Shown: positions 176 to 28,862 of the stretch, in pieces
Layout: each line of letters starts with the position of its first letter
Position numbering within the stretch: position 1 is the first letter of the stretch
From: a virus
Direction: 5' to 3' (one strand)
DNA: 36,627 bases
Virus record (IMG/VR): IMGVR_UViG_3300033141_003018
Coordinates: 1 to 36,627 of that record
The notes under the pieces: model-generated
The model's input: the letters and a program-made list of their open reading frames with translations, nothing else
The model's database searches: none
What the model was told of the DNA's origin: nothing
Position numbers and translations under genes: made by a program

Positions 176-460
176 TTAGAGTGATTTCAACAATGCAAAG
201 GTTCGTTCGGCAAGGTTGAAGTGGGCTGATTTCCACTTAGTCATACCTTGTCTAAACGCTACTCCCTTTACTAACTGTTTACAAAGGTCTATTGTTTTGA
301 TTTCGGCTTTTACTTGAGCAAGAGGCAAACTTACACTACCGTCTTTATAATCTGATGAGGTAAATACGAGTTTATCTCCGTCAGTATTAACCATATGTTT
401 TGAAGACCGTTTTGGAACGCCTTCGTTTACCAACTTTTTAATATCTGTCATATGTATCAT
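176..460 (-). CDS. Hypothetical 94-aa protein on its own leftward unit
   Basis: I do not recognise this protein. It is 94 residues, mixed charged, with no clear membrane segment, cysteine cluster or helix-turn-helix; the middle has alternating hydrophobic residues (SLPLAQVKAEIKTIDL) and the C-terminus looks helical (LAERTFALLKSL). An AAAGGGG ribosome site lies 5 nt upstream of the first ATG, which favours that start over the second ATG four codons in. It is the only complete gene in the window on the minus strand. It has its own consensus promoter (567-596) and terminator (94-119), so it is transcribed away from the late genes. That suggests an independently expressed early or regulatory protein, by context only. 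Confidence 0.75.
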   Translation of the reverse strand: MIHMTDIKKLVNEGVPKRSSKHMVNTDGDKLVFTSSDYKDGSVSLPLAQVKAEIKTIDLCKQLVKGVAFRQGMTKWKSAHFNLAERTFALLKSL

Positions 461-812: not shown

Positions 813-832
813 TGACCTGTTTTTCAAGGTCA
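813..832. promoter_or_regulatory. 20-bp inverted repeat upstream of the main promoter
   Basis: TGACCT (813-818) and AGGTCA (827-832) are perfect inverted half-sites separated by 8 bp, ending 2 bp before the -35 hexamer at 835. Size, symmetry and position fit a dimeric regulator site (activator or repressor). The cognate protein is unknown; the 68-aa helix-turn-helix protein at 1366-1572 is one local candidate. Confidence 0.45.
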
Positions 833-834
833 GT

Positions 835-864
835 TTGACAGAAAGGGCCCGGATATGGTATAAT
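835..864 (+). promoter_or_regulatory. Perfect sigma-70 promoter for the late region
   Basis: TTGACA (835-840), an 18-bp spacer, then TATAAT (859-864), with TG one base upstream of the -10 (extended -10). Transcription would begin near 871. No other promoter of this quality was seen upstream of the packaging and head genes. It is followed almost at once by the terminator at 879-919. Confidence 0.9.
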
Positions 865-878
865 ACACTTAACCTAAT

Positions 879-919
879 AAAAGGCCTTTTACTAGATGTA
901 CTAGTAGAAGGTCTTTTTT
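879..919 (+). terminator. Intrinsic terminator or attenuator just after the promoter
   Basis: GGCCTTTTACTAG (883-895) pairs over 13 bp (two G-U pairs) with CTAGTAGAAGGTC (901-913) across a 5-nt loop, followed by six T (914-919). The flanking AAAA can pair with the first T residues. Transcripts from the 835-864 promoter would end after about 50 nt unless the polymerase is modified or the hairpin is disrupted. Confidence 0.87.
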
Positions 920-2164: not shown

Positions 2165-2681
2165 ATATAACTTTCAAAATCATCCCTTAAAAGATGAGAT
2201 ACTCAAGATGTTCGAGGATGGCAAAAATCCTTATCATGTTGAGGACTTTTTAAAGAAAAGAGGAGATGAGTTTCTACTATCCCGACCAACCTTATATAAA
2301 CACTACAATAACTATAAACGGGCCACCAAAGTTGATGAATCCAAAAATAAAGACAGAGAAGAGTTTAAGAATAAGCTAACAGAGGAGCTTTGGACTACAA
2401 TCAAGTATTGTAATATTGCAATGCAGGATAAATCACTTACTCCAAAAGATTGGCAGTACTTTGACCAACAAAAGCAATCTGCTATAGAAAAACTAATGAG
2501 ACTTAAGGGTGGTAGTAGTAATGGAGAAGATGCTAGTACAATACTTGCTAAGTTCTTTCAAAAGTTTACAATTGATAAAGCCTTAAAAGAAGCAGAGAAA
2601 AAAGATGACGCAGCCGAAAAAGACGATAACGAGCAGGGGTCAAGCGGCGATTTACTTCCTGGAGAATCTGTGTCGGTTTGA
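2157..2681 (+). CDS. Terminase small subunit (probable)
   Basis: 174 residues counted from ATG 2157, which has GGGAG 8 nt upstream; the ATG at 2151 is too close to that site. The N-terminal part (residues about 10-55) is a helix-turn-helix-like region (DGKNPYHVEDFLKKRG then LSRPTLYKHYNNYKR) as in small terminases that recognise the packaging site. A middle helical region follows (LTEELWTTIKYCNIAMQDKS) that would oligomerise, then an acidic Lys/Asp/Glu-rich tail. Assignment rests on size, domain plan and position: its 3' end overlaps the large terminase by 77 nt. Confidence 0.75.
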   Translation: MGKYNFQNHPLKDEILKMFEDGKNPYHVEDFLKKRGDEFLLSRPTLYKHYNNYKRATKVDESKNKDREEFKNKLTEELWTTIKYCNIAMQDKSLTPKDWQYFDQQKQSAIEKLMRLKGGSSNGEDASTILAKFFQKFTIDKALKEAEKKDDAAEKDDNEQGSSGDLLPGESVSV

Positions 2682-5001
2682 AGGGGAACCGATTAAGTTA
2701 TACGATTATCAGAAGAAGTTCTTGCTTGATGAATCTACATATCGTATAGTAAACAAGGCAAGACAGCTGGGATTTAGTTTTATCATAGCAGCTGAGGCCG
2801 TGTTTGAAATGCTTACTATTCCTAACCACACTATACTAATAGTATCTACCGGTGAGAATAGCGCAAAAAGAGTTTTAGGTTATTGTTATAAGATAATTAG
2901 GGGAATTAAGTTTGCAGTAGAGATGTCTAAGGCAACTCAAGAAGAAATAGAAGTTCCAAATGGTTCTCGCATTATATCACTTCCAAATAATCCAAACTGC
3001 TACTCAGGTGACACAGAGATACTTACTGATAGAGGTTGGAAACGATTCGATGTATTAAGAGATAATGATGTTGTTGCCCAGGTAGATAAAGATTCACTTG
3101 AACTTTCTTATGTAGTTCCAAATCAAGTAGTACGATTACCATATGAAGGGGATATGTACCATCTAAAGAATAAGCCATTTGATTGTATGGTAACACCAAA
3201 TCACCGCATGCTTACATGTTCTTTTGATAAAACTAATAGGCGTGAACACAAAAAACGTATTGAGCATATATCAGAATTATCTAATGTGGAAAATTGGATG
3301 TATAAAGCAGTACATTATAAAGGCACTGAAATAAAAGAGTTTAAAATACCACATATATCTAATTGGTCTGAAGAAATAGTTTTATCTGGTGATGATTATT
3401 GCAAGTTTATGGGAATATGGATTGCAGAAGGATGTGTTTACAACAGAAAAGGTGTAAGTTATCAAGTGGATATAGCTCAGTATCCCGGTCGGAAGAAAGA
3501 TAAAATAAGAGAATTTTTAAAACAAACTGGAATTAATTTTAGTGAGAATAAATATAAATTTACAATCTGGAATAAAGATTTATATTCTTACTTATCGCAG
3601 TTTGGAAATAGTAAAACAAAGTTTGTGCCTCACGTTATAAAAAATGCGCCTGAAAGACAAAGAAGATTATTTTTGGATTGGTATGGATTAGGTGATGGTA
3701 ATTATAGAAATGGTAAATGGCGTTTTTTTACAATATCTAAGCAATTAGCAGATGATATTCAGGAAATTTTAATTAAATGCGGTTCTGGTATTAATGTTAG
3801 TAAAAGACGATATAATTTTGGTCAAACCGGTTTTGAAATAAATGAAAAACGCGATAAATATAGCAATCCAAGAACACTTGGATGGTTTAATAGAACAAAG
3901 CATATAAAGAAGGTTGATTTTAACGGTAAGATATACTGTGTATCAGTTCCTACTGGTCTTATTTTAGTAAGAAGGAATGGTAAAGCAGTTGTGTGTGGAA
4001 ACACAGTAAGAGGTTTTAACGCTGGTCGGGTTTATATAGATGAATCTGCTCATTTTATAAAGGATAGAGATATATTTCAAGCAATACAACCATCTATCTC
4101 TAGGGGTGGTAAAATGACATTATCATCTACTCCTAGAGGAAGAGCTAACATTTTCTATGAGAAATGGACAGATGATGATGAGTACAGTCATCACAGGGTG
4201 CACTATACAGAATGTCCCGATAAGAAGTATCAGCGTGAAGTTGAGAAGATGAGACGTACTATGTACGAACTCGATTTTAAGCAAGAGTATTGTTGCGAGT
4301 TCATGGCTGATGAGATGTCTATGTTTCCTAGAGATTTAATTGAACCATGTATTGATATGTCTCTAGTAAACGCAAGTGGGGATAATATAAAGGGCTCATG
4401 CTTCTTAGGAATAGATTTTGCTAAGAAGGTAGACTCAACCGTTTTGACTGTAGCAGAGTCTATACCGGGTCAGAAGATTGTTGTAAGATTCTTAAAAGAA
4501 TTAAAGAACATGCCATATGAGGCTCCTAATCCAGGGCTACCTAGTCAAATGAAAGAAATTACTAGGTTATTCAAGGTTTTTAGGGTACAGCGCATTAAGA
4601 TGGACTCAACTGGTGTAGGCGTAAAGCTAGAAGAGGATTTGGTAAGAAAGTTTGGTTCTATTGTAGAAGGAGTTCGGTTTGGTACTCAAGAAAAAGAAGG
4701 TTTAGTTACAAACCTTAGAATTGCATTTGAGAAACAATTAATAAGAATCCCAAATAACGAGCAGTTAATATCTCAGTTAATGAGTCTAGAGAGACACGTT
4801 ACCGAAACTGGAGTGCCTAGATATAAACACGTGCAAGGCAAGCATGATGATTATGTATGGTCACTGGCACTATGTATAAGTGCTGCAACTTTAGCATCTA
4901 TCGATATAGGATATAATTATGTAGGCACGATAGATTCTAAAGAGGTTAACGAAAAGGCATTCGAAAAAGAATTTGAGCAGCCTCAAATAATAGCATTTTA
5001 G
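2605..5001 (+). CDS. terL: Terminase large subunit precursor, interrupted by an intein
   Basis: ATPase-nuclease motor that packages DNA into proheads. The precursor is 798 aa; after splicing the extein would be 463 aa, normal for the family. The ATPase domain has a variant Walker A (KARQLGFSF, residues 51-59, no Lys in the usual place, as in Mu gp28-like terminases). Walker B RVYIDESAHF (475-484) lies just after the intein, followed by the coupling motif SSTPRGRAN. The RNase H-like nuclease shows Asp604 (GIDFAKK), Asp667 (IKMDSTG) and Asp748/749 (KHDDYVWSL). It starts inside the small terminase gene and is followed 8 nt later by the portal gene. Confidence 0.95.
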   Translation: MTQPKKTITSRGQAAIYFLENLCRFEGEPIKLYDYQKKFLLDESTYRIVNKARQLGFSFIIAAEAVFEMLTIPNHTILIVSTGENSAKRVLGYCYKIIRGIKFAVEMSKATQEEIEVPNGSRIISLPNNPNCYSGDTEILTDRGWKRFDVLRDNDVVAQVDKDSLELSYVVPNQVVRLPYEGDMYHLKNKPFDCMVTPNHRMLTCSFDKTNRREHKKRIEHISELSNVENWMYKAVHYKGTEIKEFKIPHISNWSEEIVLSGDDYCKFMGIWIAEGCVYNRKGVSYQVDIAQYPGRKKDKIREFLKQTGINFSENKYKFTIWNKDLYSYLSQFGNSKTKFVPHVIKNAPERQRRLFLDWYGLGDGNYRNGKWRFFTISKQLADDIQEILIKCGSGINVSKRRYNFGQTGFEINEKRDKYSNPRTLGWFNRTKHIKKVDFNGKIYCVSVPTGLILVRRNGKAVVCGNTVRGFNAGRVYIDESAHFIKDRDIFQAIQPSISRGGKMTLSSTPRGRANIFYEKWTDDDEYSHHRVHYTECPDKKYQREVEKMRRTMYELDFKQEYCCEFMADEMSMFPRDLIEPCIDMSLVNASGDNIKGSCFLGIDFAKKVDSTVLTVAESIPGQKIVVRFLKELKNMPYEAPNPGLPSQMKEITRLFKVFRVQRIKMDSTGVGVKLEEDLVRKFGSIVEGVRFGTQEKEGLVTNLRIAFEKQLIRIPNNEQLISQLMSLERHVTETGVPRYKHVQGKHDDYVWSLALCISAATLASIDIGYNYVGTIDSKEVNEKAFEKEFEQPQIIAF
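2998..4002 (+). mobile_element. Intein with LAGLIDADG endonuclease in TerL
   Basis: 335-residue self-splicing element, precursor residues 132-466. It begins with Cys (block A CYSGDTEILTDRGW), has block B TPNHRMLT, and two LAGLIDADG-like motifs: CKFMGIWIAEG (about 266-276) and LFLDWYGLGDG (about 355-365), each keeping its acidic residue. Block F is KIYCVSVPTGLILVRRNGK and block G is VVCGN, followed by Thr467 of the host protein. The penultimate residue is Gly, not the usual His. It sits between NNPN and TVRGF, a conserved terminase stretch before Walker B. No frameshift or stop is present, so splicing and homing may both be active. Confidence 0.93.
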
Positions 5002-9807: not shown

Positions 9808-10416
9808 ATGAGATGTCCACGAGATGGAAGTAAATTAAAAAAGCTCAAAATATCTTATGTATGCCCGAGATGCGATTATAAAATAACTCAACCAGACAAA
9901 AGGATATACCCAGAGCTTAATCGAACAGTTGTCACGCCAGAGAATATAGCTTGGGATAGTTATACACTAACAAACTGTACTGAGTCTAGTGGTGTAATAA
10001 GTCTAGATAGCGGTAAAACTAGTGGTACCATAGTGTCTCCGCAGTTAGCTAATATATCTCGTAGTAAATGGCAAGAAATTAATCGCGACATAACAAAAGT
10101 ATTATTTAGAAAATTAATAGGAGCAGTAAATAGCGGAAGAATACAAATAAGGGCATCAAATGACGGTGGTACTACATGGAAAAGAATTAAAGATGACGGG
10201 CAAGAGTGGAGATTAAACTATGGTCATGAAGGAGATTTTGGGGGAAGTTATCAGATAAAATATGATGACTTGAGATTACAATTTACACTTACTCGTAATA
10301 GTGCTGGCGATACGTCACCAACTGTTACGAGTTTTATTTTAGAGCATAACTACGTACCAGATGATAGGAGTACTAAGAGCAGAACAGACATAAACTCTTT
10401 AATACCGGGGAGATAG
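9808..10416 (+). CDS. Zinc-ribbon plus beta-rich domain protein, 202 aa
   Basis: Residues 1-30 are a zinc ribbon: MRCPRDGSKL, then YVCPRCDYKI. The remaining 170 residues look all-beta, with TVVTPENIAWDSYTLTN, SGRIQIRASNDGGTTWKRI and LRLQFTLTRNSAGDTSPTV. The 'SNDGGTTWKRI' stretch is like those of sialidase/BNR or carbohydrate-binding beta-sandwich modules found in virion fibres. It starts 4 nt after the previous stop and is followed by several small genes on the same strand. Likely a minor virion or accessory structural protein; I do not recognise a named family. Confidence 0.78.
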   Translation: MRCPRDGSKLKKLKISYVCPRCDYKITQPDKRIYPELNRTVVTPENIAWDSYTLTNCTESSGVISLDSGKTSGTIVSPQLANISRSKWQEINRDITKVLFRKLIGAVNSGRIQIRASNDGGTTWKRIKDDGQEWRLNYGHEGDFGGSYQIKYDDLRLQFTLTRNSAGDTSPTVTSFILEHNYVPDDRSTKSRTDINSLIPGR

Positions 10417-16450: not shown

Positions 16451-16479
16451 ATGGCTCACAATATAGGGGAATGGGGAAT

Positions 16480-19400
16480 ATGAATAAGCCAAAGATACTC
16501 TTAGTAAGCGATTCAGCAGCAATAGATACAGGTATGGGTGTTGCAGCAAGAGAGATATGTTATAGATTAAACCTTAGTGGAAAGTATGAAGTTGCACAGT
16601 TCGGATGGTTTTGGAATTCAGCTAAACAACGTAGAATAAAATGGAAATTTCCTTGGAAACAATATACAACTAGCGATGCAAAAAATCCATATGGTCATCC
16701 ACTTGGATGGAATGGGAATTATGAAAATCCAACTGGTAATTATGAAAACTCTCCATTTGAACAAGTTTTAGAAGAGTTTAAACCAAATATAGTATTAGCA
16801 ATAGGCGATATATGGATGTGTGACTTTATCTACTTCTCGCCGAATAGAAAAGAGTTTAAATTTATACACGAGTTTCCGATAGATGGTGAACCGGTACCAG
16901 TTGAATGGATAGATTTAATTAAAAAAGCTGATTTACCAGTAGTAATGAGTGATTATGGGCTGAAAGTATGTCACGACATTAATCCCAGGGTATATATAAA
17001 AAAGATACCACGTGGTATTAATACTCAAACATTTAGACCATACCCTGATAAGAGCGCATTGCGTAAAAAGTATCTTCCATCTACTGAAGGGAAATTTGTA
17101 GTAGGGGTCTTTGACAGATATCAAGATAGAAAGCAGATACCAAGAGCAATAGAAGCATTTGCGAAGTTTAAAAAAATGCATAAGATTGATAATTGTGATT
17201 TATATCTTCATATGGATATAAATGATACTCACTCAATGCAGCAAAATAAATTTCTCTTAGGACCAAATGGTATAACAAATCGTTATGATATAAAACAAAG
17301 TATACTCATTAATCAAAATATAACTGTAGAAAAAGGTGTGCCATTACAAGAACTTGTTGGGTTATATAATTGTTGTGATATCAAGATGTCGTCTGCACAG
17401 GGTGAGGGTTGGGGATTAACTACAGTTGAGGCAATGTCATGTGGTATACCGTGTATAGGAACTAATTATACTACGTTTCCAGAACACTTTGCAGATGGTA
17501 GGGGCCTGTTGGCTAAAGTTGCTACATACATCACTGGACAATATAATGTAGAAAGGGCTCTCGTAGATACCAGTGATTTAGCTCGGGGTTTGGAGATTTT
17601 ATATCGTTCTACAGAACTTAGAGAAAATATTTCTAGAAAAGGGAGGGAGTATGCCCTATCCCTTGATTGGTCAAATATATTTAATATGTGGGAATCAGCC
17701 ATAGACACTCTTTTGAAAAAAAGGAGTTATTCATTACCTGTGCATACACCACACCCAAAGTTTGTTAGAGACAAACAGGAGATTAATATACAGGGTGCTA
17801 TATATGAAAATACAGGTTTTAGTATAGTAACAGCTGGTTTTGCAAAAGGATTAAATCGATTAAAACATAGTGTATCTATTACTCCTAGAATAGATAAACC
17901 AGTAGGATATGTAATAGATGAAGAATTACAACAGCTCATTGATAAAGAAAAATATAACGACGTTGAAATAATTAATCATATGCCAGACGAATGCGTAAAA
18001 AGGGTAAAGGAATCTATGGCACGTGTCAAGATAGCATATTCGCCGTGGGAGCTTACTGAAGTTAAAGATAGCTGGATAGATATGATTAATAGGGACGTAG
18101 ACGCATTCTGGTGTAACTCTAATTTCGTTAAGAACTTATTTGTAAGCAATGGTGCTTATGCTGATAAAATAACCGTTATACCAAATGGCATTACAGTAGA
18201 TAGTAACGCTAAACCTTATCCGTTAAAAACTAAGAAAAAATATAAGTTTTTAATGCTCGGTAATTTAGGTGATGTAAGAAAGAATGTACCAACACTTATA
18301 CAAGCATATCTTGCTACATTTACTAGCGACGATGATGTGTGTTTAATATTAAAATCTCAACCAGGACATGTTAATTCAGACCCCTCTGAATTATGCGAAA
18401 GTATGGTACGTGGAAGAAATAATATACCTGAGATTGAAGTTATACATGATGATTTTCCCGATTTATCTGGTTTATATAAATCGTGTGATTGTTTTGTAAC
18501 AGCATCTCATGCAGAGGGATTCTGTCAGCCAATTCTGAACTCATTGGCAAGTGGTATGATGGTAATAGCTCCTAATTATGGCGGTTATTTGGATTTTGCG
18601 TCTCAATCGAAACGCTTTATCGGTCTACCCGGTAAAATAGTGTCAGCAGATAAATCTCCAGTATACTTAGCTAGCTCAAAATGGTTTGATGTAGACTTTA
18701 ACTCACTTATACAGTTTATGAAAAAAGTATATACAGATAATATTAAAAATAATGGTGAGAATAAGGTACCTGAGTATAGGTGGGAAAATACAGGTATTAA
18801 AATAATAGATGCAATAAAAGCGATTGAGTCATCTCCAGAGAAATTTAAAGTGTATTATAAAAACTTCTCAAAAAATATGTGGAATGATGATAATAGAAAA
18901 AACATTATAAGATATGCTCCTCCACATATTGAATTTATAGATTCACCTACTGAAGCCAACTTACAAGTGATAGACATAGCAAAACTTGCTGATTTTAGAA
19001 ACATTAGTTGCAAGAATTTTATTATTAACTTTCATTGTAGGGGGGAGTGGTCAGAGGAGAATATACAGGATTATTTACCATATTTTAAAAAAGCTATAAT
19101 GGTATACTCGCATTTAGACTTGCAGAAAGAGTTACCAGAACTTACAAACTTTGTTAGGGGTCCATGGGGGACAAATCACAGAAATTTCTTTAATGTAGCA
19201 AACAACCGACATGAATTTATAATACTAAATACTGGTGTAGTGCCGCAATCAGAGGGTATATATGAATCTATAGCCGCTGCTGACGATGTAAACAAGAAAC
19301 TATTCCACACTGGTCCAAATTTAATGATAAAGAATAAATCTTATCATGTATGTAAAAAGTTTTTATCTGTAGAGCAGTTAAGGTACATGTACAACTCATG

Positions 19401-19704
19401 TTCTTATACGTCAGGCATGAGACGTATAGAAGGATTTGAAAAGACGGTAGCAGAAGGATTGCTATGTGGTTCTAGACCAATATGTTTTGATACACCGTTA
19501 TTCCGTTATTGGTATGGTGATTTGGTAGAATATGTCAAAGAGGGTACGCAGAAAGAAACAGTAATTGATATTATCAAAATATTTAAAGGAGATTACAGGG
19601 TGGTTACAGAAAAAGAACGTGAGATAGTAAGGAAAAGTTTTTCTTGGATGAATGTAGCAAAGCAATATTGGACATCATTGACAAAATTAATGGGGGAAAA
19701 ATAA
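16480..19704 (+). CDS. Triple-unit GT-B glycosyltransferase, 1,074 aa
   Basis: Start placed at ATG 16480, about 10 nt after GGGGA; ATG 16471 overlaps that site. Unit 1 (about 1-420) is a GT4-type enzyme: N-terminal KILLVSDSAAIDTGMGVAAR and the donor-site motif QGEGWGLTTVEAMSCGIP near residue 305. Unit 2 (about 430-800) repeats this, with HAEGFCQPILNSLASGMMV near 677. Unit 3 (about 810-1074) is a shorter GT-B-like half with RRIEGFEKTVAEGLLCGSRP near 980. Enzymes of this kind transfer sugars from nucleotide donors. Three units suggest ordered addition of several sugars by one protein. It opens the modification operon. Confidence 0.88.
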   Translation: MNKPKILLVSDSAAIDTGMGVAAREICYRLNLSGKYEVAQFGWFWNSAKQRRIKWKFPWKQYTTSDAKNPYGHPLGWNGNYENPTGNYENSPFEQVLEEFKPNIVLAIGDIWMCDFIYFSPNRKEFKFIHEFPIDGEPVPVEWIDLIKKADLPVVMSDYGLKVCHDINPRVYIKKIPRGINTQTFRPYPDKSALRKKYLPSTEGKFVVGVFDRYQDRKQIPRAIEAFAKFKKMHKIDNCDLYLHMDINDTHSMQQNKFLLGPNGITNRYDIKQSILINQNITVEKGVPLQELVGLYNCCDIKMSSAQGEGWGLTTVEAMSCGIPCIGTNYTTFPEHFADGRGLLAKVATYITGQYNVERALVDTSDLARGLEILYRSTELRENISRKGREYALSLDWSNIFNMWESAIDTLLKKRSYSLPVHTPHPKFVRDKQEINIQGAIYENTGFSIVTAGFAKGLNRLKHSVSITPRIDKPVGYVIDEELQQLIDKEKYNDVEIINHMPDECVKRVKESMARVKIAYSPWELTEVKDSWIDMINRDVDAFWCNSNFVKNLFVSNGAYADKITVIPNGITVDSNAKPYPLKTKKKYKFLMLGNLGDVRKNVPTLIQAYLATFTSDDDVCLILKSQPGHVNSDPSELCESMVRGRNNIPEIEVIHDDFPDLSGLYKSCDCFVTASHAEGFCQPILNSLASGMMVIAPNYGGYLDFASQSKRFIGLPGKIVSADKSPVYLASSKWFDVDFNSLIQFMKKVYTDNIKNNGENKVPEYRWENTGIKIIDAIKAIESSPEKFKVYYKNFSKNMWNDDNRKNIIRYAPPHIEFIDSPTEANLQVIDIAKLADFRNISCKNFIINFHCRGEWSEENIQDYLPYFKKAIMVYSHLDLQKELPELTNFVRGPWGTNHRNFFNVANNRHEFIILNTGVVPQSEGIYESIAAADDVNKKLFHTGPNLMIKNKSYHVCKKFLSVEQLRYMYNSCSYTSGMRRIEGFEKTVAEGLLCGSRPICFDTPLFRYWYGDLVEYVKEGTQKETVIDIIKIFKGDYRVVTEKEREIVRKSFSWMNVAKQYWTSLTKLMGEK

Positions 19705-20780
19705 TGGAATATCATGAACAGCAAAGTAATTTTGTAGAATTTTTCTATGACAAGTTTAAAGATAAGAACATTGCTTTTTTATCACCATATAAGTGTGAGT
19801 TTGGCATAAAGCAGACAGAGGTGGTAAATGGAATAACTGGCGTTCCTTTAACGTTCAAGAAAGATGGCGCAGACTTTTATTATTATCATGACTTAAAAGA
19901 TATACCTGATGCACAGTTAAGCCAGATATTGAGGCAGTATGATTACTTTATTTACCCGGTATATCCAGAATATTTTGATTTATTAGCACGCATTAAACCT
20001 AATTTCAATGGCACGGTTATAGGTGTAACAGATATACAAACACATCAACTTGCATATTGGTCAATAGATGTTCTTCATAAATTCGTGAAATCATTACGGT
20101 TATATGATTATATAATGTGCACAAATATTGATGAAGTAGATACCTTTAGAATTGCTCTTGATAACCATAGTAAGTGTGCGTATACTGGTTGGTCTATGTA
20201 TCCAGAACAGTTACATTATCCGCATATTAAAGAAGACAGAACGAAGCATAACGGAATATGTGTCTGTATTAATAATCCGGGAAGTTTTAATAGGGATTTA
20301 CTCACAAATTTAGAGGTCTATAAACGCTTGAAAAAACTTTTTCCCGAGATTAAGGGATGGATGTATTATATTACACCAAATAAGAAAGACGCATTACGTA
20401 AAATAATAGACGATGTTGGTGCAAAAGACTTTGAGCTTGTAGATGAATTACCGTACAAAGATGCTATTGAGTATTTATCAAATGCTTATATGGCAATACA
20501 TTTGTATACGTTCAAGGTTGTTGGAAGATTGGCGCAGGATTGTGCGGCTCTTGGGATTCCCATGGTTGGCACAATAGCTAATTTTCCAAATCGAATGTGT
20601 TTTCCTGAAACGTCTGTTAAGGATTATTATGTTAGCGGTGCGGTTGAGATAGCTGCGCGCCTTATGAAGGATAAATATTTTTATAGTAAGGTAGTCAATC
20701 AGTCAATCGAGGCATCAAGATTTTATAACTTAGAAAATACTCAAAAAAGGATATGGGCGCTGTTAAATGGGGAATTATAA
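19704..20780 (+). CDS. GT-B-like glycosyltransferase, 358 aa
   Basis: ATG 19704 is chosen because GGGGG lies 7 nt upstream and the codon overlaps the previous stop (TAATG); a start 60 nt earlier has no such site. The fold pattern is GT-B: an N-terminal half with FIYPVYPEYFDLL and TVIGVTDIQTHQLAYW, and a C-terminal half with GICVCINNPGSFNRDLL, KDFELVDELPYKDAIEYLSN and RLAQDCAALGIPMVGTIANF. The latter is the donor-binding helix-loop expected in GT4-like enzymes, though the classic E-x7-E is not kept. The acceptor cannot be told. Confidence 0.72.
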   Translation: MEYHEQQSNFVEFFYDKFKDKNIAFLSPYKCEFGIKQTEVVNGITGVPLTFKKDGADFYYYHDLKDIPDAQLSQILRQYDYFIYPVYPEYFDLLARIKPNFNGTVIGVTDIQTHQLAYWSIDVLHKFVKSLRLYDYIMCTNIDEVDTFRIALDNHSKCAYTGWSMYPEQLHYPHIKEDRTKHNGICVCINNPGSFNRDLLTNLEVYKRLKKLFPEIKGWMYYITPNKKDALRKIIDDVGAKDFELVDELPYKDAIEYLSNAYMAIHLYTFKVVGRLAQDCAALGIPMVGTIANFPNRMCFPETSVKDYYVSGAVEIAARLMKDKYFYSKVVNQSIEASRFYNLENTQKRIWALLNGEL

Positions 20781-21792
20781 TATACTATTGTGTGGTGATG
20801 TAGGTGATACGCAAAGCTGGGGCATTTCTACTATAGGTAACGCAACTGGATTTATAAGAAACCAACAGAATCTTGCAATATGGACTAAGGCGCATTATGG
20901 TTCATGTCCACAGTTTTTGGTAGACCATATTAATAGGGTGTATAAGTTTGATGTTGTTATAAATCAGGGTTTACCAACCCAGATGTTCTTTCTTAAAAAA
21001 ATACATGGAGACATATTTAAAGTAACGTTAAATTGTTGGGATTCTAGTCTTATACCAGAGAGTGCGGCAAATGATATTAATCAAGTAGCTGATGCATCTA
21101 TATGTATATCTAAGTTTACAGAAAAGGCTTTTAGGGATGCTGGTGTTACTATACCAATACACGTAGGTGGGCAGGGTGTTGATACGAATTTATTTAAATA
21201 TGTTGAAAGAAAGAAAAGTGACAAGTTCAGATTTTTATTTGTTGGTGTTGCACAAGGGCGTAAAGGAACAAATGAATTACGATACGTGTTTGAAGATACT
21301 CTAGGTGATAGAGATGATTGTGAATTAATTGTTAAGTCAACGGGATGGGGTAAGTTACCAGAAAAATCGAGGTGCAATAATGTTAGATTCATACACGATG
21401 AGTACAGTCGTACTCAAATCGCTGATTTATACACTGATTGCGATTGCTTTGTGTGTCCTACCCATGGTGATAGTTTTATGTTACCAGGTTTGGAAGCTAT
21501 GGCGACAGGGATGCCGTTACTCATCACTGATTTCGGAGGCCCAAAAGAATATCTTAACAATAGAACGGGATACCCGTTAAAATACAAAGAAATAGATTGT
21601 GAATATCTTCCTGGTAAGCAAGCTGAACCAGATAAAGAACATTTAGCATATTTATTAAAATATATATTAGAACATCAAAATGAAGCAAGGGAGAAGGGTA
21701 AGCATGGAGCACAGTGGGCAAGAGAATATTGGAACTGGGAATCAGACGCAAAAAGAATCATTGAGTTCTTTGATAAAGAAATACAACGGTAA
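20767..21792 (+). CDS. GT4-type glycosyltransferase, 341 aa
   Basis: Overlaps the previous gene by 14 nt. GT-B with a reduced N-terminal half (NILLCGDVGDTQSWGISTIG, VTLNCWDSSLIPESAANDIN, ICISKFTEKAFRDAGVTIPI) and a typical C-terminal half: FRFLFVGVAQGRKGTNELRY, then DLYTDCDCFVCPTHGDSFML and PGLEAMATGMPLLITDFGGP. The PGLEAMATGMP segment is the nucleotide-sugar donor site. Related to the units of the 16480 gene, suggesting growth of this cluster by duplication. Expected to act in the host cytoplasm. Confidence 0.85.
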   Translation: MGNYNILLCGDVGDTQSWGISTIGNATGFIRNQQNLAIWTKAHYGSCPQFLVDHINRVYKFDVVINQGLPTQMFFLKKIHGDIFKVTLNCWDSSLIPESAANDINQVADASICISKFTEKAFRDAGVTIPIHVGGQGVDTNLFKYVERKKSDKFRFLFVGVAQGRKGTNELRYVFEDTLGDRDDCELIVKSTGWGKLPEKSRCNNVRFIHDEYSRTQIADLYTDCDCFVCPTHGDSFMLPGLEAMATGMPLLITDFGGPKEYLNNRTGYPLKYKEIDCEYLPGKQAEPDKEHLAYLLKYILEHQNEAREKGKHGAQWAREYWNWESDAKRIIEFFDKEIQR

Positions 21793-22318
21793 GGCAGCAT
21801 TTGGTGTTGGTCATATTGATTTGCATGACCTTGGTTTTATTAATATAGATGTTAGGAAGTGGTCACATATAGACTTAGTGCTAGATGTCGGTTCGCCACT
21901 GCCGTTCGAAGACAACTCTCTAAGTGAGATACTTGCTGAGAGTGTCCTAGAACACATTAACCACAATATTATAGGCGTTCCACCTGCCTTTAGGATGACT
22001 AACTCTATTAAAGTTCTAAAAGACTGGCGTAGAGTTCTCAAGCCTGGAGGTACGCTAAAACTACGGGTACCTAATCTTGAGGGGGTATTTAAGCAGTATA
22101 TTGCTGGAAATATGTCTGCTATTGATTTAATCGGTTATGTGTATGGCGGTGGCGAATATAACGAAAACTATCACAAGGCTGGATTTGATAAAAGGATAAT
22201 GGGCGCATGTTTAAGGGCGGCTGGGTTTAAAGAATGGAAGATTGTTGATGCACATAAATATAAACATGAACTTGATGCTGATAAAGCATGGGAGATGGGA
22301 GTTGTGGCAATAGCATGA
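21704..22318 (+). CDS. SAM methyltransferase-like protein (COG4627-like)
   Basis: The start is uncertain. ATG 21704 has AGGGAGAAGGG upstream but overlaps the glycosyltransferase by 89 nt; the domain itself begins only near KKYNGKAAFGVGHIDLHDLG. The core is a short class I methyltransferase: INIDVRKWSHIDLVLDVGS, then PFEDNSLSEILAESVLEHI and LKDWRRVLKPGGTLKLRVPN. The usual Gly-rich SAM loop is reduced (FGVGHIDLH). Such proteins occur in polysaccharide clusters as predicted sugar methylases. It is a paralogue of 22878-23399, with the same block order. Confidence 0.78.
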   Translation: MEHSGQENIGTGNQTQKESLSSLIKKYNGKAAFGVGHIDLHDLGFINIDVRKWSHIDLVLDVGSPLPFEDNSLSEILAESVLEHINHNIIGVPPAFRMTNSIKVLKDWRRVLKPGGTLKLRVPNLEGVFKQYIAGNMSAIDLIGYVYGGGEYNENYHKAGFDKRIMGACLRAAGFKEWKIVDAHKYKHELDADKAWEMGVVAIA

Positions 22319-22881
22319 GAGTAGCAATGTGGAAAGCAAAAGAAGCTAGCAATGATAGAAAGGATATAGTTGGAGTAGAAGTTGGGGTAGACCAAGGTGT
22401 CCATGCTTGTGAAATATTACACGACTGGAAAGAGCTTAAAACATTACATTTAGTAGATAACTATAGTGCAAAAAACATTTCTAATCATGGTGATGCTAGA
22501 ATAAAACTTCAAATGTTTAATGATAGGGTCAAATGGCATTTACGGCCATCGCTAGAAGCAGCATTATCATTTGATGATAACTCTTTAGATTTTGTCTACA
22601 TAGATGCTAGCCATGTATTTATAGATGTTTTGCGAGATTGTATTGTTTGGTATAAAAAGGTTAAAGTGGGCGGAGTTCTCTGTGGACATGATTATAGAAA
22701 AGATTGGGTGAGTTTAGATAAACATTCTCCTACGTATATAAATTCTTATGGGGTTGTAAATGCTGTTGATAAATTTATAAAATGCAAAAATATTGAAATT
22801 GAAATGGATAAAAAGGGCAACAAACTGGTATTAGGAACAAAGACAGATGGTGGTTCAAGCGATTGGTGGGCTATAAAATGA
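22315..22881 (+). CDS. Class I SAM methyltransferase, 188 aa
   Basis: Begins in an ATGA overlap with the previous stop. Motif I is IVGVEVGVDQGVHACEILHD and the strand-2 acid is in LKTLHLVDNY; then DDNSLDFVYIDASHVFIDVL and VKVGGVLCGHDYRKDW. This block order fits the Methyltransf_24 type that often modifies sugars in surface glycan clusters. Methyl acceptor unknown. It is coupled on both sides by 4-nt overlaps, so it is expressed with the neighbouring methylases. Confidence 0.82.
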   Translation: MRVAMWKAKEASNDRKDIVGVEVGVDQGVHACEILHDWKELKTLHLVDNYSAKNISNHGDARIKLQMFNDRVKWHLRPSLEAALSFDDNSLDFVYIDASHVFIDVLRDCIVWYKKVKVGGVLCGHDYRKDWVSLDKHSPTYINSYGVVNAVDKFIKCKNIEIEMDKKGNKLVLGTKTDGGSSDWWAIK

Positions 22882-23399
22882 CGCTAATTGATAAAATACG
22901 CAATGTTGATTCTGGAAAATTAAAGTTATTATTTGGAGCTGGTACATCGAATTGGAACAGTGATGGATACGTAAACGTAGATATTCGACAAACGAAAACA
23001 GTTAACGTTGTTTGCGATTTATCTAAGAAGTTGCCATGGAAGGATAATGAGGTAGACGAGATACATGCAGAGTCTGTTATAGAACATATACCGATGGGCA
23101 AGGATTACGTTAATACTATTAGGGTTCTCACTGAATGGAATAGGATTTTAAAACCGGGCTGTTTATTGACATTAAAGATACCAGACTTAGCGGTACTTTG
23201 CAAGAGGTATGATTATGAATCTGGTACCGTAATAAACTATTTATACGGTGGGCAAGATTATCCAGAAAATACACATGTAGCTGGATTTAGCATAGCATCT
23301 TTTTATAGAATTTTTAAAGAAAGTAACTTCGAGTATGTTGGTTATGAAAAGCCAGAGAGTTATCCTTTAGAAATAGAAATTATAGGTAGGAAAAAATAA
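22878..23399 (+). CDS. SAM methyltransferase-like protein, 173 aa
   Basis: ATG 22878 lies in an ATGA overlap with GGTGGG 7 nt upstream. Core motifs: LKLLFGAGTSNWNSDGYVNV (reduced SAM loop), KTVNVVCDLSKKLPWKDNEV, EIHAESVIEHIPMGKDYV and RILKPGCLLTLKIPDLAVL. It matches the 21704 gene block for block, so both arose by duplication. It is shorter than ordinary methyltransferases and lacks their C-terminal cap. Likely sugar methylation, by context. Confidence 0.8.
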   Translation: MTLIDKIRNVDSGKLKLLFGAGTSNWNSDGYVNVDIRQTKTVNVVCDLSKKLPWKDNEVDEIHAESVIEHIPMGKDYVNTIRVLTEWNRILKPGCLLTLKIPDLAVLCKRYDYESGTVINYLYGGQDYPENTHVAGFSIASFYRIFKESNFEYVGYEKPESYPLEIEIIGRKK

Positions 23400-23989
23400 T
23401 GCCAACATCATCATATTTTGCATTAACACCTATGGTCCAAGCTATAAGCGCAACATCACCTAAGTCGGTGCTAGATATAGGCTTTGGTTATGGTAAGTGG
23501 GGATATTTTTGCAGAGAAATATTGGAAGCACATCCGGGCAATAGGGTGTATCCAGAGAATTGGGAAGTTAGGATAGATGGTATTGAGGTGTGGGAAGGGT
23601 ATGCAAAGAGACTTCCGTGGATTGAGCTTTTTTATGATAATGTGTACATTGGAAATGCCGGTGATGTTATAAAAACTCTTGGAAATTATGATTTAATAAT
23701 ACTTGGGGATGTAGTAGAGCACCTTGAAAAAGATAAAGGCATGGAATTACTACGCAACAGCATAAAAAGGGCTAACAAGTGCTGTCTGTTGAGTATACCG
23801 ATAGGCGATTGGACAGATAAAAAGGTTATATGCGACAACAACCATTTTGAAAACCATCTTTCCGCATGGTCCGAAGAAGAACTAATCGGAGTTGGTAGAG
23901 AATTTAATATTGATGTTGGTAACTATTTCATACAACGACAAAGAAATCCACAAAGAGCTGAAGTTTGCGTAATGGCGTTCAGAAAATGA
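23399..23989 (+). CDS. Class I SAM methyltransferase, 196 aa
   Basis: Starts in a TAATG overlap. Motif I is SVLDIGFGYGKWGYFCREIL (residues about 24-43), a normal SAM loop. Residues EVRIDGIEVWEGYAKRLPWI give the strand-2 acid, and NYDLIILGDVVEHLEKDKGM is the motif IV region, followed by CCLLSIPIGDWTDKKVICDN. The C-terminal segment (WSEEELIGVGREFNIDVGNY) resembles those of phage and capsule-cluster methyltransferases. Target unknown. Confidence 0.85.
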   Translation: MPTSSYFALTPMVQAISATSPKSVLDIGFGYGKWGYFCREILEAHPGNRVYPENWEVRIDGIEVWEGYAKRLPWIELFYDNVYIGNAGDVIKTLGNYDLIILGDVVEHLEKDKGMELLRNSIKRANKCCLLSIPIGDWTDKKVICDNNHFENHLSAWSEEELIGVGREFNIDVGNYFIQRQRNPQRAEVCVMAFRK

Positions 23990-24642
23990 AAATATACGAA
24001 AACATAAGACAAGATAAAAAATTTGTGGTTTGTTCGTTTTACACTAGTGGCGAATACTATGAGGGTGTGTTCTTGGATAAACTGTTCCCAAGTTTAAAAA
24101 AATATGATTTACCATATCATGTAGAGGAAATTGAAAGCTTGGGCGCATGGCAGCTAAATACTGGTTTGAAGTCCTTGTTTATTGAAAAAATGTTGATAAA
24201 CTATCCCACCACAGATGTAGTGTGGGTTGATGTAGATGGTGAATTTGTGCAATACCCCAAACTGTTTGAGAATATACCTGGAGAATATGATTTGGCTGTA
24301 GGATATACAGATATGGATAAGTGGTATAACACAACAAGATACCATGGTAAACAGCAACTTAATAGTGCAACGTGTATGTTTAGAGCTAAAAAAAAGACAC
24401 TGGATATCGTGCACGATTGGAGAGCTAGAATATTGGTAAACGCTACTGAGGTATGGGAACAGGAGCACTTACAAGTAGCAATAGACAGGTATAATGGCAT
24501 AAGTGTTTTTAGGTTACCGATTGAATATCATTACATAACAACACTTCCAGGCGGGGATATACCTCATATAAAAGTAGACGACCCGGTAATCTTACAACAT
24601 CAAGCTGGTAGAAGAGTAAACAGAAGATTAGAGACTGTATAG
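23986..24642 (+). CDS. GT-A type glycosyltransferase, 218 aa
   Basis: ATG 23986 in an ATGA overlap is chosen over TTG 23965. The domain looks GT-A: FVVCSFYTSGEYYEGVFLDK, then a DxD motif in TTDVVWVDVDGEFVQYPKLF, which would bind the metal and nucleotide sugar. LNSATCMFRAKKKTLDIVHD and VWEQEHLQVAIDRYN follow, as in nucleotide-diphospho-sugar transferases with a late catalytic acid. It is the only GT-A enzyme of the cluster; the other GTs are GT-B. Donor and acceptor unknown. Confidence 0.78.
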   Translation: MKIYENIRQDKKFVVCSFYTSGEYYEGVFLDKLFPSLKKYDLPYHVEEIESLGAWQLNTGLKSLFIEKMLINYPTTDVVWVDVDGEFVQYPKLFENIPGEYDLAVGYTDMDKWYNTTRYHGKQQLNSATCMFRAKKKTLDIVHDWRARILVNATEVWEQEHLQVAIDRYNGISVFRLPIEYHYITTLPGGDIPHIKVDDPVILQHQAGRRVNRRLETV

Positions 24643-24644
24643 CA

Positions 24645-25292
24645 ATGAAATTTGATTTCAATACTATTGATAATTTCAATGAGCACATAAGTAAATCTAT
24701 ACCAAATTATGATATTCTCCTTAATAGTTTAGTAAGATTGTCTAAGTATTTTATAGTGAATAAATACAGTGTGTATGATTTAGGTTGCTCTACCGCCACC
24801 CTACTATTTGAGTTATCTAAATTATATCCTAATATAAAAAAGATTGGTATAGATAATAGTGCTAACATACTTCCAGAGGAGCATTCTAAGGATATAACAT
24901 TTTTGTTGCATGACCTGAACAAGGGAATAACTTTAGAGTCATCGTGTTTAGTATTTTCAATATTTACGTTGCAATTTTTAGACAGGGGCATACGGCAGGA
25001 CATAATAAACGAAGTATATAATAAGCTATGCGTTGGTGGAGCGTTTATAGTAGCTGAGAAAACTTATGCAGATAGCGCTATTACGCAAGATATATTCACA
25101 TTTACATACTATGATTTTAAGAAGTCCGAGTTTACAGAAAAAGAAATCTTGGATAAAGAAAAAGACTTAAGGAGCATTCTTAGACCGAATAGAAGTGATG
25201 TAAATCTTAAAATGCTAAAAAACGCTGGGTTTAGTAATATAGAAAAATTTTATAAATATTTCATGTTTGAAGGTTATATCTGTATAAAATAA
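24645..25292 (+). CDS. CmoA-like SAM-binding methyltransferase
   Basis: 215 aa. The sequence follows CmoA, the enzyme that makes carboxy-SAM for tRNA wobble uridine modification: SKSIPNYDILLNSLVRLSKY, VYDLGCSTATLLFELSKLYP, KIGIDNSANILPEE, FSIFTLQFLDRGIRQDIINE, GGAFIVAEKTY, and a C-terminal LKNAGFSNIEKFYKYFMFEG. It is about 30 residues shorter than cellular CmoA. Aligned to E. coli CmoA from memory, the position of the carboxylate-binding Arg (Arg199) appears to be Glu here (DKEKDL). If right, the enzyme may use plain SAM. No CmoB partner is present. The ribosome site is weak. Confidence 0.8.
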   Translation: MKFDFNTIDNFNEHISKSIPNYDILLNSLVRLSKYFIVNKYSVYDLGCSTATLLFELSKLYPNIKKIGIDNSANILPEEHSKDITFLLHDLNKGITLESSCLVFSIFTLQFLDRGIRQDIINEVYNKLCVGGAFIVAEKTYADSAITQDIFTFTYYDFKKSEFTEKEILDKEKDLRSILRPNRSDVNLKMLKNAGFSNIEKFYKYFMFEGYICIK

Positions 25293-25304
25293 GGAGCATA
25301 TTTT

Positions 25305-25916
25305 ATGGGCAGTGAATATTTTGATAGGGATTACTTTGAAGGCAGCAATAGCAATAGAAAATCAGGATATTTAAAAAGTAGTTTTCGTCTCGGTAATGAT
25401 GTTTTTACTCACCAAGCTAATATGCTCTTTGATATATTAAAGTTGGACAATAAAGTAGTAATTGACCTGGGGTGTGCTAGAAATAACTTAGTTTATTGGT
25501 TAAGAAAGCGTGGAGTTCTTGCGTGGGGGCAGGATATATCAAAATGGTGTAAAGAGAACTCGTACGCTAAAGACTACCATAAGCGTGGAGACATTAGCAA
25601 GGAAATGCTTTTTGATGACAACTCTGTAGATGCTGTGGTCTCTTTTGAAACACTTGAACATATAGGAGATGTTGATAGATTATTATCTAACATCAGGCGA
25701 GTTTTAAAACCTGGCGGATATTTATTTGCAACGATAAGTAGTGATGGGCATGAAAATGACATATCTGCAGTTACGTTAAAAGATAGGCCTTGGTGGAATA
25801 GTAAATTTGGAGAGTTTTTCGTAAAACAAGATAATCTGATTGAAAAGTTTAATAGTACATATCTGGTTAAGTCATATTGCTGGAAAGTTTATTGCTATAA
25901 GGTGACAGATAAATGA
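25305..25916 (+). CDS. Class I SAM methyltransferase, 203 aa
   Basis: Has AAGGAG 8 nt before the ATG, one of the few independent ribosome sites in the operon. Motif I is KVVIDLGCARNNLVYWLRKR; LAWGQDISKWCKEN gives the strand-2 acid; DDNSVDAVVSFETLEHIGDV is motif IV; IRRVLKPGGYLFATISSDGH follows. This is a complete Methyltransf_11 layout. The N-terminal MGSEYFDRDYFEGSNSNRKS is typical of sugar and lipid-linked glycan methylases with a YFD-DYF start. Its acceptor is unknown. Confidence 0.86.
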   Translation: MGSEYFDRDYFEGSNSNRKSGYLKSSFRLGNDVFTHQANMLFDILKLDNKVVIDLGCARNNLVYWLRKRGVLAWGQDISKWCKENSYAKDYHKRGDISKEMLFDDNSVDAVVSFETLEHIGDVDRLLSNIRRVLKPGGYLFATISSDGHENDISAVTLKDRPWWNSKFGEFFVKQDNLIEKFNSTYLVKSYCWKVYCYKVTDK

Positions 25917-26707
25917 AATGCATGTTTTTAATTACTACTGAGTTGGCTGAGAGATTGTTTAAATTTATCTACCCGAAGATGGAAGAGAGAATCCTATTTA
26001 CGAAGTTTGATGACATAACTAAATTTGAAAAGCCAGATTTAATAGTTACTGCTGCTGCCCATGAGGATATAAACAAAAATATAATAAGCCATTTCGGAAG
26101 TAAATCTTTATTTGTGGTAGAGGGGTTAAATAATTGGAAATACATAAAGGGAAATTATGTAGATAGGGTAGCAGTCTGGGGCAAGAATATGAAAGAAGAT
26201 TTTATTAAGGCTGGATGGACAAAAGAAAAGATAGTTATTACCGGTTGTCCAAGATTCGAAACACATAAGCGAAGAGTGCTAATAGCACTGCCTGCTTATG
26301 GAAAATCTGAAATGAATAGTGAAATACTTATTTCGAAGATAACTAATTTCTTAAAAGACAGAAATGTTATTGTTAGTGTTAAACGTCATCCAGGTGTCTC
26401 AAATGAAAAACAGGACATTGTAGAGTGCTTAAGAGAATGTGAGATTGTAATAACCGGTGCTTCAACCATTGCCTTACACGCATTATTAATGGATAAGAAA
26501 GTTATTTGTTTTGATACAAATATGAATCTATTTGTAAGAGAGAAGCATTTTAGGGAGCTTACAAAGAAGATTAAAATCTGCTATTCATATACTGAAATAT
26601 TAAATGAGTTTGAGCAAGATGAAACTATTACTGATTATCTATACGATAGTTTTGGAGCAGCTGATAATATAATAAGGCTTATCAATGAAATGGGGGATGC
26701 TAAATGA
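25913..26707 (+). CDS. GT-B-like transferase, 264 aa
   Basis: ATGA overlaps at both ends. The N-terminal half (FLITTELAERLFKFIYPKME, PDLIVTAAAHEDINKNIISH) and the C-terminal half (IVITGCPRFETHKR, NVIVSVKRHPGVSNEK, CEIVITGASTIALHALLMDK, KVICFDTN) match the GT-B pattern of CDP-glycerol- or CMP-Kdo-type transferases and UDP-GlcNAc 2-epimerase-like proteins; VKRHPG and GASTIALHA are the expected donor-site loops. It is short for the fold and may be minimal. Probably a sugar or polyol-phosphate transferase. Confidence 0.72.
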   Translation: MKCMFLITTELAERLFKFIYPKMEERILFTKFDDITKFEKPDLIVTAAAHEDINKNIISHFGSKSLFVVEGLNNWKYIKGNYVDRVAVWGKNMKEDFIKAGWTKEKIVITGCPRFETHKRRVLIALPAYGKSEMNSEILISKITNFLKDRNVIVSVKRHPGVSNEKQDIVECLRECEIVITGASTIALHALLMDKKVICFDTNMNLFVREKHFRELTKKIKICYSYTEILNEFEQDETITDYLYDSFGAADNIIRLINEMGDAK

Positions 26708-27288
26708 TTAGAATAACCAAAGAACAGCGCGTTGCGGCAGAGCATAAATGGCGCGGTGAGCGTGGAGTACCATTAAATACAGAAGACCACGATAATATGC
26801 ACGTTAAGAGATATGACTTTGCTAATCTATTTTCAGAGAATAAATTAGTGCTAGACCTCGGTTGTGGTAGCGGTTATGGTTCCGCAATACTAGCAAAGAA
26901 AGCGTGGGGAGTACATGGGATTGATAAAACAGAAGATGCAATCGATTTTGCGAAAAGGTATTACGATAAAGGTAACGTGGAGTGGTTTGTTGAGTTTTTT
27001 CCGCTTATTCAAAAAGAAGACAAAAAATACGACGTAGTTGTGTGTCATGAAGTAATAGAGCATGTAGAGGATGACATGTTGCTATTACAAGAGATAAAGC
27101 GTGTGATGAAAGATGATGGCATATTTGTCGGTACTACTCCAATCAAGAAAGAGCACGAAGGACCGGCTAAGTGGCACATGCGTGAATATAGTATGAAAGA
27201 ATATAAGATACTTTTGAAGAGGGTTTTTAGTCAAGTAGATGTAATCTATTTTGACCACAATAAAAGTATGGGAATATGTAAAAAATGA
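26704..27288 (+). CDS. Class I SAM methyltransferase, 194 aa
   Basis: ATGA overlap with the previous gene. Full motif set: LVLDLGCGSGYGSAILAKKA (motif I), WGVHGIDKTEDAIDFAKRYY, KKYDVVVCHEVIEHVEDDML, IKRVMKDDGIFVGTTPIKKE. Closest in layout to UbiG-like and sugar methyltransferases. The C-terminal part HMREYSMKEYKILLKRVFSQ is the usual substrate-side helix pair. It has the best-preserved SAM loop of the cluster, so it is very likely active. Acceptor unknown. Confidence 0.88.
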   Translation: MIRITKEQRVAAEHKWRGERGVPLNTEDHDNMHVKRYDFANLFSENKLVLDLGCGSGYGSAILAKKAWGVHGIDKTEDAIDFAKRYYDKGNVEWFVEFFPLIQKEDKKYDVVVCHEVIEHVEDDMLLLQEIKRVMKDDGIFVGTTPIKKEHEGPAKWHMREYSMKEYKILLKRVFSQVDVIYFDHNKSMGICKK

Positions 27289-27557
27289 CAAAAGAAGACT
27301 TTATTGGTGCATGTGTCGATAAGGGATGGTTATGGAAACAAGAAGAAAAAAAAATTCTTATAAAGTTAAAGAATGAAAGGATTGTAGAGGTTGATACTAC
27401 TAAAGGACCGCTCTCAAAAGAACTAATCAAGCATATTGGTGCTCAAGATGTGGTACAGATGACACGAATCGTTGGTTACTATTCTAATGTTCATAACTGG
27501 AATAAATCCAAATTGGGTGAGTTGAAAGATAGGCATACTGGAGACTACTTTGCATGA
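27285..27557 (+). CDS. Small protein with NrdD-tail-like motif, 90 aa
   Basis: ATGA overlap with the methyltransferase. The N-terminal half is unknown (FIGACVDKGWLWKQEEKK). The C-terminal half, TRIVGYYSNVHNWNKSKLGE then LKDRHTGDYFA, resembles the last part of anaerobic ribonucleotide reductase and its small stand-alone relatives, where similar R-V-GYY-----NWN-SK-GE--DR stretches occur. The metal-binding Cys pairs and glycyl-radical motif of NrdD are not present, so it is not a reductase. Role unknown; regulation or folding of a partner is possible. Confidence 0.6.
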   Translation: MTKEDFIGACVDKGWLWKQEEKKILIKLKNERIVEVDTTKGPLSKELIKHIGAQDVVQMTRIVGYYSNVHNWNKSKLGELKDRHTGDYFA

Positions 27558-27847
27558 GGAAATGTCAGTTATGTGATAGGGAGAAATTAACTACTTGGTA
27601 TTACGAAGATGATATATGTTGGATATGTGAATGTAAAACGTGTCATAGTCCAATGGTAGTATTAAAAGCGCACAGAAAACCAATTAAAAATGAATTGGAA
27701 CACATGTTAAATAAAGCACGAAAGCTATTCAATATGAAAACACACACGTTTGATTTTAACATGAGAACAATTCCAGACCATTTCCATTTTCATTTAAGGG
27801 AATTTAATGGGAGAACAGATGAGCCTTTTGAATACCATTATTTCTAA
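27554..27847 (+). CDS. HIT-like / zinc-binding small protein, 97 aa
   Basis: ATGA overlap at its start. N-terminal RKCQLCDREKLTTWYYEDD and WICECKTCHSPMVVLKAHRK give a CxxC and a CxxC pair. The C-terminal part contains IPDHFHFHLREF, an alternating His triad as in HIT-family nucleotide hydrolases and transferases (HxHxH). Stand-alone proteins with this plan exist but are poorly studied. It could act on a nucleotide-linked intermediate of the cluster; this is inference from the His motif. Ends by overlapping the next gene by 41 nt. Confidence 0.65.
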   Translation: MRKCQLCDREKLTTWYYEDDICWICECKTCHSPMVVLKAHRKPIKNELEHMLNKARKLFNMKTHTFDFNMRTIPDHFHFHLREFNGRTDEPFEYHYF

Positions 27848-28106
27848 TTGCGGTATAGTTACGTCGTATATTTTAGAGGGTATATATTTAAGACAACCAT
27901 CTGAAATTAAAAAAATAGTTCCTGTTGGGGAATTAATAATTATGTATATTAAAAAAGATTGCTATACCCCAATGATGTGGAGAAAAGAGTTTCGAGAAAG
28001 TGGTTTTGAATTAGATGTTAAAGCTATTAACAAAATAATATCGCACGAGTTATATAGTAAGTTTAGCGAGAAATACGAAGTTTACTGTTACAGGAGAAAA
28101 CTATGA
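27807..28106 (+). CDS. Hypothetical 99-aa protein
   Basis: AAGGGAA lies about 6 nt upstream of ATG 27807, within the HIT-like gene. The pattern (VPVGELIIMYIKKDCYTPMM, WRKEFRESGFELDVKAINKI, then ELYSKFSEKYEVYCYRRKL) resembles the C-terminal end of class I methyltransferases, where a strand, a helix and a final beta hairpin follow the active site. No SAM loop is present, so it may be a remnant or a partner subunit. Coupled to the next gene by ATGA. Confidence 0.6.
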   Translation: MGEQMSLLNTIISNCGIVTSYILEGIYLRQPSEIKKIVPVGELIIMYIKKDCYTPMMWRKEFRESGFELDVKAINKIISHELYSKFSEKYEVYCYRRKL

Positions 28107-28555: not shown

Positions 28556-28567
28556 GAAGAGGATGTT

Positions 28568-28858: not shown

Positions 28859-28862
28859 TGAA

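Follow-up and report, generated by a model that had tools for sequence, protein, structure and literature searches.

A consensus promoter closely followed by an intrinsic terminator ahead of the late genes of a virus fragment: a possible antitermination gate

The late genes and the region that precedes them

The window considered here is a whole IMG/VR record, a linear virus fragment 36,627 bases long; sequence upstream of base 1 lies outside the record. Genes on the plus strand form a nearly unbroken series from 1019 to 36.6 kb. They comprise small genes, a putative terS, terL, and the portal, major capsid, tail and tape measure genes, and all of them lie downstream of an intrinsic terminator, t1 (879–919, plus strand), which is itself preceded by a promoter, P835 (835–864, plus strand). 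To the left of this pair is a single divergent gene of 94 aa (176–460, minus strand), which is 42% identical in a related contig, L004 (IMGVR_UViG_3300035698_022766), and is followed by a terminator at 117–102 on the minus strand.

The first gene behind t1 (1019–1192) encodes a 57-aa protein with a CxxC motif and has the Shine–Dalgarno sequence AAGGAGG just upstream. A candidate late regulator follows at 1366–1572, a stand-alone helix-turn-helix (HTH) protein of 68 aa that resembles sigma region 4 and LuxR and is 62% identical in L004. The gene directly before terS (1832–2164) is membrane-protein-like. The terminase small subunit (2151–2681) is assigned by its position and has no family match; its L004 counterpart is 60% identical. 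The gene for the terminase large subunit (2605–5001) contains an in-frame intein-like insert with a LAGLIDADG domain at about residues 132–466. The TerL homologues of L004 and a second contig, L002, are uninterrupted, as is that of L003 over the part it covers. A cluster of sugar and methyltransferase genes also sits among the late plus-strand genes, with glycosyltransferase, methyltransferase, nucleotidyltransferase and GHMP kinase functions in a block (16471–30478) between the head and tail genes. Between tail genes, the gene at 32244–32948 weakly matches phage endonuclease I (E 1.8e-4) and is possibly a free-standing homing endonuclease.

A divergent promoter on the minus strand at 567–596 (TTGACA-18-TATAAT, 12/12 with TG) reads left toward the 94-aa gene. 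A second rightward promoter-like site, P672 (672–701, plus strand; TTGACA-18-TAAAAT, 11/12), has a predicted start at about 708. The −35 boxes of these two sites form an inverted repeat (TGTCAAGG ... CCTTGACA) with 71 bases between them. The original prediction drew attention to a 20-bp inverted repeat abutting the −35 of P835. Such a repeat is present at 813–832 (TGACCT-N8-AGGTCA, with perfect 6-bp arms, an 8-nt loop, and an end 2 bp upstream of the −35), but it is no more than chance would supply: among random 50-bp stretches of matched composition 11% contain a similar repeat, and shuffling the region gave at least as many in 59 of 300 cases. The idea that the repeat is an operator was set aside because of this chance level.

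The promoter, the terminator and the RNA between them

P835 consists of TTGACA (835–840), an 18-bp spacer (GAAAGGGCCCGGATATGG) and TATAAT (859–864), with the TG of an extended −10 at 856–857. This is a 12/12 match to the consensus, the only one on the plus strand of the window, and it bears out exactly the consensus extended −10 promoter that had been proposed at this position. In 300 dinucleotide shuffles, counting both strands, 12/12 sites arose 0.083 times per shuffled window and 12/12 sites with TG 0.010 times. A promoter scan of the plus strand between 919 and terS found no promoter-like site of at least 10/12. With all late plus-strand genes following t1 and no comparable promoter before terS, the packaging and head genes do lie behind this promoter and terminator, as had been claimed.

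The core stem of t1 pairs 883–895 with 901–913 around a loop at 896–900, and TTTTTT follows at 914–919. The hairpin has a 13-bp stem and a folding energy of −16.6 kcal/mol. Under d'Aubenton-Carafa-style scoring it reaches 18.0 and ranks first in the window on either strand, a level expected 0.017 times per shuffled window (300 dinucleotide-preserving shuffles), and the terminator originally called here is thus the best-scoring one. When the A–U pairs between 879–882 and 914–917 are included, the fold has a z of −4.7. A simple terminator scan overlooks t1, probably because these A–U pairs extend the stem into the T tract. The lambda terminator tR' (44724–44772), scored in the same way as a control, gives −21.0, which means that by that measure t1 does not count as weak. 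Viral contigs contain no match to the t1 arm AAAAGGCCTTTTACTAG.

The end of the −10 is 14 bases from base 879, close to the gap of about 15 bp first described, and 18 bases from the core stem. The predicted default transcript starts at about 871 and ends at about 916–919 on the plus strand, which gives 46–49 nt and agrees, as far as the positions of promoter and terminator can tell, with the RNA of about 50 nt that had been expected. The −10-like sequences TAACCT (870–875) and TAATAA (875–880) are candidate pause elements and are expected by chance in AT-rich sequence. A search of the locus against Rfam gave nothing above chance, and the leader behind t1 (920–1030) is structured no better than its shuffles (z +0.6).

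Only about 12 nt of RNA separate the predicted start (871) from the core stem (883), which leaves no room for an RNA element of the nut, put, conAn or canT type on the P835 transcript. The structured or recognition RNA that RNA-loaded antitermination requires upstream of the first terminator is therefore absent from this transcript. A leader RNA had been named as one possible agent of readthrough; on the P835 transcript this is very unlikely, and an RNA mechanism would be possible only on transcripts from P672. This leaves just three ways past t1: a factor loaded from promoter DNA in the manner of Q, AlpA or GafZ, plain leakiness of the terminator, or transcription from P672.

Relatives and terminators inside late genes

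Relatives were sought in viral contigs with the portal, HTH, TerS, 94-aa, Cys-rich and TerL proteins, and bacterial genomes were also scanned. Few close contigs were found overall, and L004 alone covers the P835–t1 site; L002 and the contigs L003, L007 and L012 begin inside TerS or TerL. The scan of bacterial genomes returned one distant portal (25%), and a phage collection held no relative at the DNA level. Portal relatives infect mostly Gram-positive bacteria, with the best matches in phages of Geobacillus, Bacillus and their allies. Six phages of Bacillus, Rossellomorea, Staphylococcus and Pectobacterium with portals 32–37% identical to that of the window lack a comparable cassette ahead of the terminase or portal genes.

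The gene order of L004 is that of the window: a divergent gene (92 aa), then the HTH, Cys-rich, membrane, TerS, TerL and portal genes. Its intergenic region carries TGGTATAAT at 3758–3766, an extended −10 with a poor −35, 58 bases before the first ATG, and no terminator was found in 3767–3824, before the first gene. With an extended −10 at the same place and no terminator, L004 indicates that the position of the promoter is kept and that t1 is not. The terminator at the homologous place that would mark a conserved late-control element is missing from the only relative that covers the site. Judged from the sequence of this sole relative, late control does not include t1 as a conserved element. 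L004 also has a 14-nt inverted repeat (3641–3654 and 3725–3738, 86%, with 70 bases between the arms) that ends where the −35 of the late promoter would be and is possibly an activator site.

Two further terminator-like hairpins on the plus strand lie within late genes. The first, t2 (2006–2027; GTACTGA-N8-TCAGTAC followed by T6ATTTT), is inside the membrane-protein-like gene and ranks second only to t1 among the terminators of both strands of the window, so that both t1 and t2 stand between P835 and terS. The second, t3 (10293–10330), is inside a gene (9808–10416) downstream of the major capsid gene. Shuffles of synonymous codons matched t2 in 0 of 1000 cases in one run and gave p 0.0025 in another; for t3 they gave 0 of 400 (p <0.0025).

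In L004, two of 13 genes have an intragenic terminator (p 0.0025 and <0.0025), and these are the homologues of the genes that hold t2 and t3. The hairpins differ from those of the window in sequence and in position within the gene. Coincidence in the choice of genes alone, two of 13, would be 1 in 78, a figure counted after the pattern had been seen. The hairpin rule had also been relaxed to allow one base between the stem and the T tract, a change made to include the t2 of L004, and the p values from synonymous shuffles depend on this rule. Counted post hoc and under the relaxed rule, the match in the choice of genes is suggestive. In L007, t3 recurs at the same position with a similar sequence. 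The hairpins in the gene after the major capsid gene (10293–10330 in the window, 6262–6299 in L007 and 11542–11576 in L004) are stronger than synonymous-codon shuffles allow.

Terminators that exceed codon chance and recur in relatives favour, at the level of sequence, a late operon that is processively antiterminated. Alternatively, t2 and t3 could set stoichiometry inside the operon.

How the terminator might be passed

The late genes probably need something that makes RNA polymerase ignore stop signals. A strong promoter that stands before the late operon and whose transcript aborts immediately is an architecture of the type found at lambda pR'–tR', at alpB and in the Caulobacter gene transfer agent (GTA), and the likeness to lambda that was pointed out at the start is supported by analogy in these respects, including the constitutive look of the promoter. 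As at late promoters of the Q type, a sigma-70 promoter and then an intrinsic terminator come before the late genes. In lambda and in phage 21, where Q and 21Q act at pR'–tR', there is likewise a strong promoter, a terminator in the untranslated leader, a late operon and a short aborted RNA. The differences are also clear. The stem of lambda tR' lies far downstream (44724–44772), whereas here it begins about 12 nt after the start; Q is codirectional in lambda, whereas the next upstream gene here is divergent; and the lambda late operon opens with lysis genes, in contrast to small genes and packaging genes here. Lambda and phage 21 have Q, whereas the window has no match to the Q families PF06530 and PF03589.

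The alpB promoter of Pseudomonas aeruginosa, with its terminator tB and the factor AlpA, has the terminator directly before the first gene, as here, and more terminators inside the operon. The GTA of Caulobacter, with GafYZ and terGTA, places a phage-type structural cluster behind a promoter and a terminator, as in the window; it needs activation by GafY and IHF, whereas the window promoter has consensus hexamers. Loading sites embedded in the promoter beside a downstream terminator are known for Q (PMC6606751), AlpA (PMC7969949) and GafZ (PMC11150451). They lie between the −35 and the −10 in phage 21, as direct 6-bp repeats (PMC6606751), at alpB (PMC7969949) and in the Caulobacter GTA (PMC11150451). 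No direct 6-bp repeat was seen by eye in the P835 spacer GAAAGGGCCCGGATATGG; different Qs use different sites (PMC6606751). The spacer sequence GGGCCC-N6-GGTA loosely recalls the GGGACG-N5-GGTA of AlpA, with no evidence of relationship.

Long operons that combine internal terminators with an antitermination system at their start are found in pLS20 (conAn; PMC8955417) and Tn916 (canT; PMC11658703). Both are operons of Gram-positive elements with several internal terminators (that of pLS20 exceeds 30 kb, and Tn916 has one terminator within a gene). They work via leader RNA, for which the P835 transcript, in contrast, has no room.

The reading that is tentatively preferred, and that is held with some doubt, is that P835 and t1 act as an antitermination gate, loaded at the promoter, before a long rightward late operon. 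By default, host RNA polymerase of the sigma-70 type would start at about 871 and stop at about 916–919, releasing an RNA that holds little beyond the t1 hairpin. Late in infection, a phage factor would alter the polymerase at or near P835, and the altered polymerase would pass t1 first and the intragenic t2 and t3 after it. With so little RNA made before the stem, a factor acting on P835 transcripts would have to load from promoter DNA, like Q, AlpA and GafZ. What the sequence shows is the two elements, their order, the late genes behind them and the return of t2 and t3 in the same genes of relatives; that transcription terminates in vivo, and that a processive factor with its own binding site exists, is inferred.

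Counting for the gate, the promoter and the terminator are each events of about 1–2% per window, and they stand 18 bases apart. Counting against it are the missing match to the Q families, the loss of t1 in L004 and the lack of a cassette in the six portal-related phages. P835–t1 is real as a sequence feature and plausibly an antitermination gate; a Q switch is not demonstrated, and the locus cannot be assigned to the Q-dependent class, among other reasons because t1 is not conserved in the one covering relative. The Q-like factor of the original prediction found no backing in matches to PF06530 or PF03589 in the window, L004 and L007 records, all of which are fragments (the upstream region of the window is absent).

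The lead for a factor is the 68-aa protein. It matches Sigma70_r4_2 (5e-8; 1.8e-5 for its L004 homologue), and its structural model (pLDDT 79) finds VpsT and sigma region 4 domains as best matches, with Z about 8; no phage 21 Q chain is among the matches listed, an outcome that speaks neither for nor against its being a Q. The protein is a lead because the HTH of phage 21 Q has been compared with sigma region 4 (PMC6606751). The modelled resemblance is a general one to sigma region 4 and LuxR, and the gene itself lies behind t1. The 94-aa protein was considered as a PC4-like or other known fold and gave no informative match.

A rather unlikely alternative is a leaky attenuator with no dedicated factor, in which a strong promoter and a t1 of limited efficiency would yield a fixed, modest level of late transcription and t2 and t3 would tune gene ratios. 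The weaker promoter of L004, without t1, fits this idea, as the two arrangements could yield similar output, and t3 follows the capsid gene, where a step down in expression makes sense. However, t1 outranks every other terminator of the window, and its 13-bp stem and six U predict low readthrough, at odds with the high expression that late genes require; a weaker promoter would also be a simpler solution.

RNA-type antitermination from P672 has distinctly less chance. Its transcript would carry a leader of about 173 nt (708–880) before t1 that, in the manner of put, EAR or canT, would let polymerase pass while P835 transcripts abort. P672 is a good promoter match, the leader folds better than its shuffles (z −2.2), and RNA-based systems exist in Gram-positive elements (PMC11658703). 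The leader also contains, at 793–807, a 15-nt near-copy (80%) of the 5' arm of t1 (882–896), 89 bases upstream of it. Against these points, the z is modest, the leader has no Rfam match and is not conserved in L004, and the longer RNA, folded to its energy minimum, retains the t1 stem. Disruption of t1 by the near-copy, in an alternative fold, is not favoured.

An insulator role is about as improbable: t1 would halt stray transcripts arriving from the divergent early promoter region, and behind it the late genes would be served by a promoter or sigma factor specific to the phage, for example by way of the 68-aa protein. The conservation of this sigma-region-4-like HTH protein and the insulating terminator at the end of Tn916 (PMC11658703) speak for it, but a consensus promoter 18 bases upstream is more than an insulator needs, the HTH gene is itself among those behind t1, and no shared motif behind t1 appears in the alignment of the window with L004. 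Least probable is a stand-alone small RNA gene whose product has its own role while the late genes use another promoter or a phage-modified polymerase. A promoter and a terminator with nothing between them do make a minimal gene of this kind, but the RNA would be almost only hairpin, with about 8–12 free 5' nucleotides and a 5-nt loop, and it is absent from L004 and Rfam.

A wider form of the preferred gate is itself unlikely on present evidence: a processive, promoter-loaded antitermination system of an unknown protein family, with a leader gate of about 12 nt and with terminators that selection keeps inside the same late genes, would control late transcription in a phage group related by its portals mainly to phages of Gram-positive bacteria, and the factor may be the 68-aa or the 94-aa protein. 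If the gate is true, a phage without a recognisable Q would have a Q-like late switch, and its small, testable promoter–terminator cassette would offer a way to find a new antitermination factor. Terminator hairpins that recur in the same late genes with different sequences may serve as a hint, readable from sequence, of operon-wide antitermination, and one that can be searched for in other phages.
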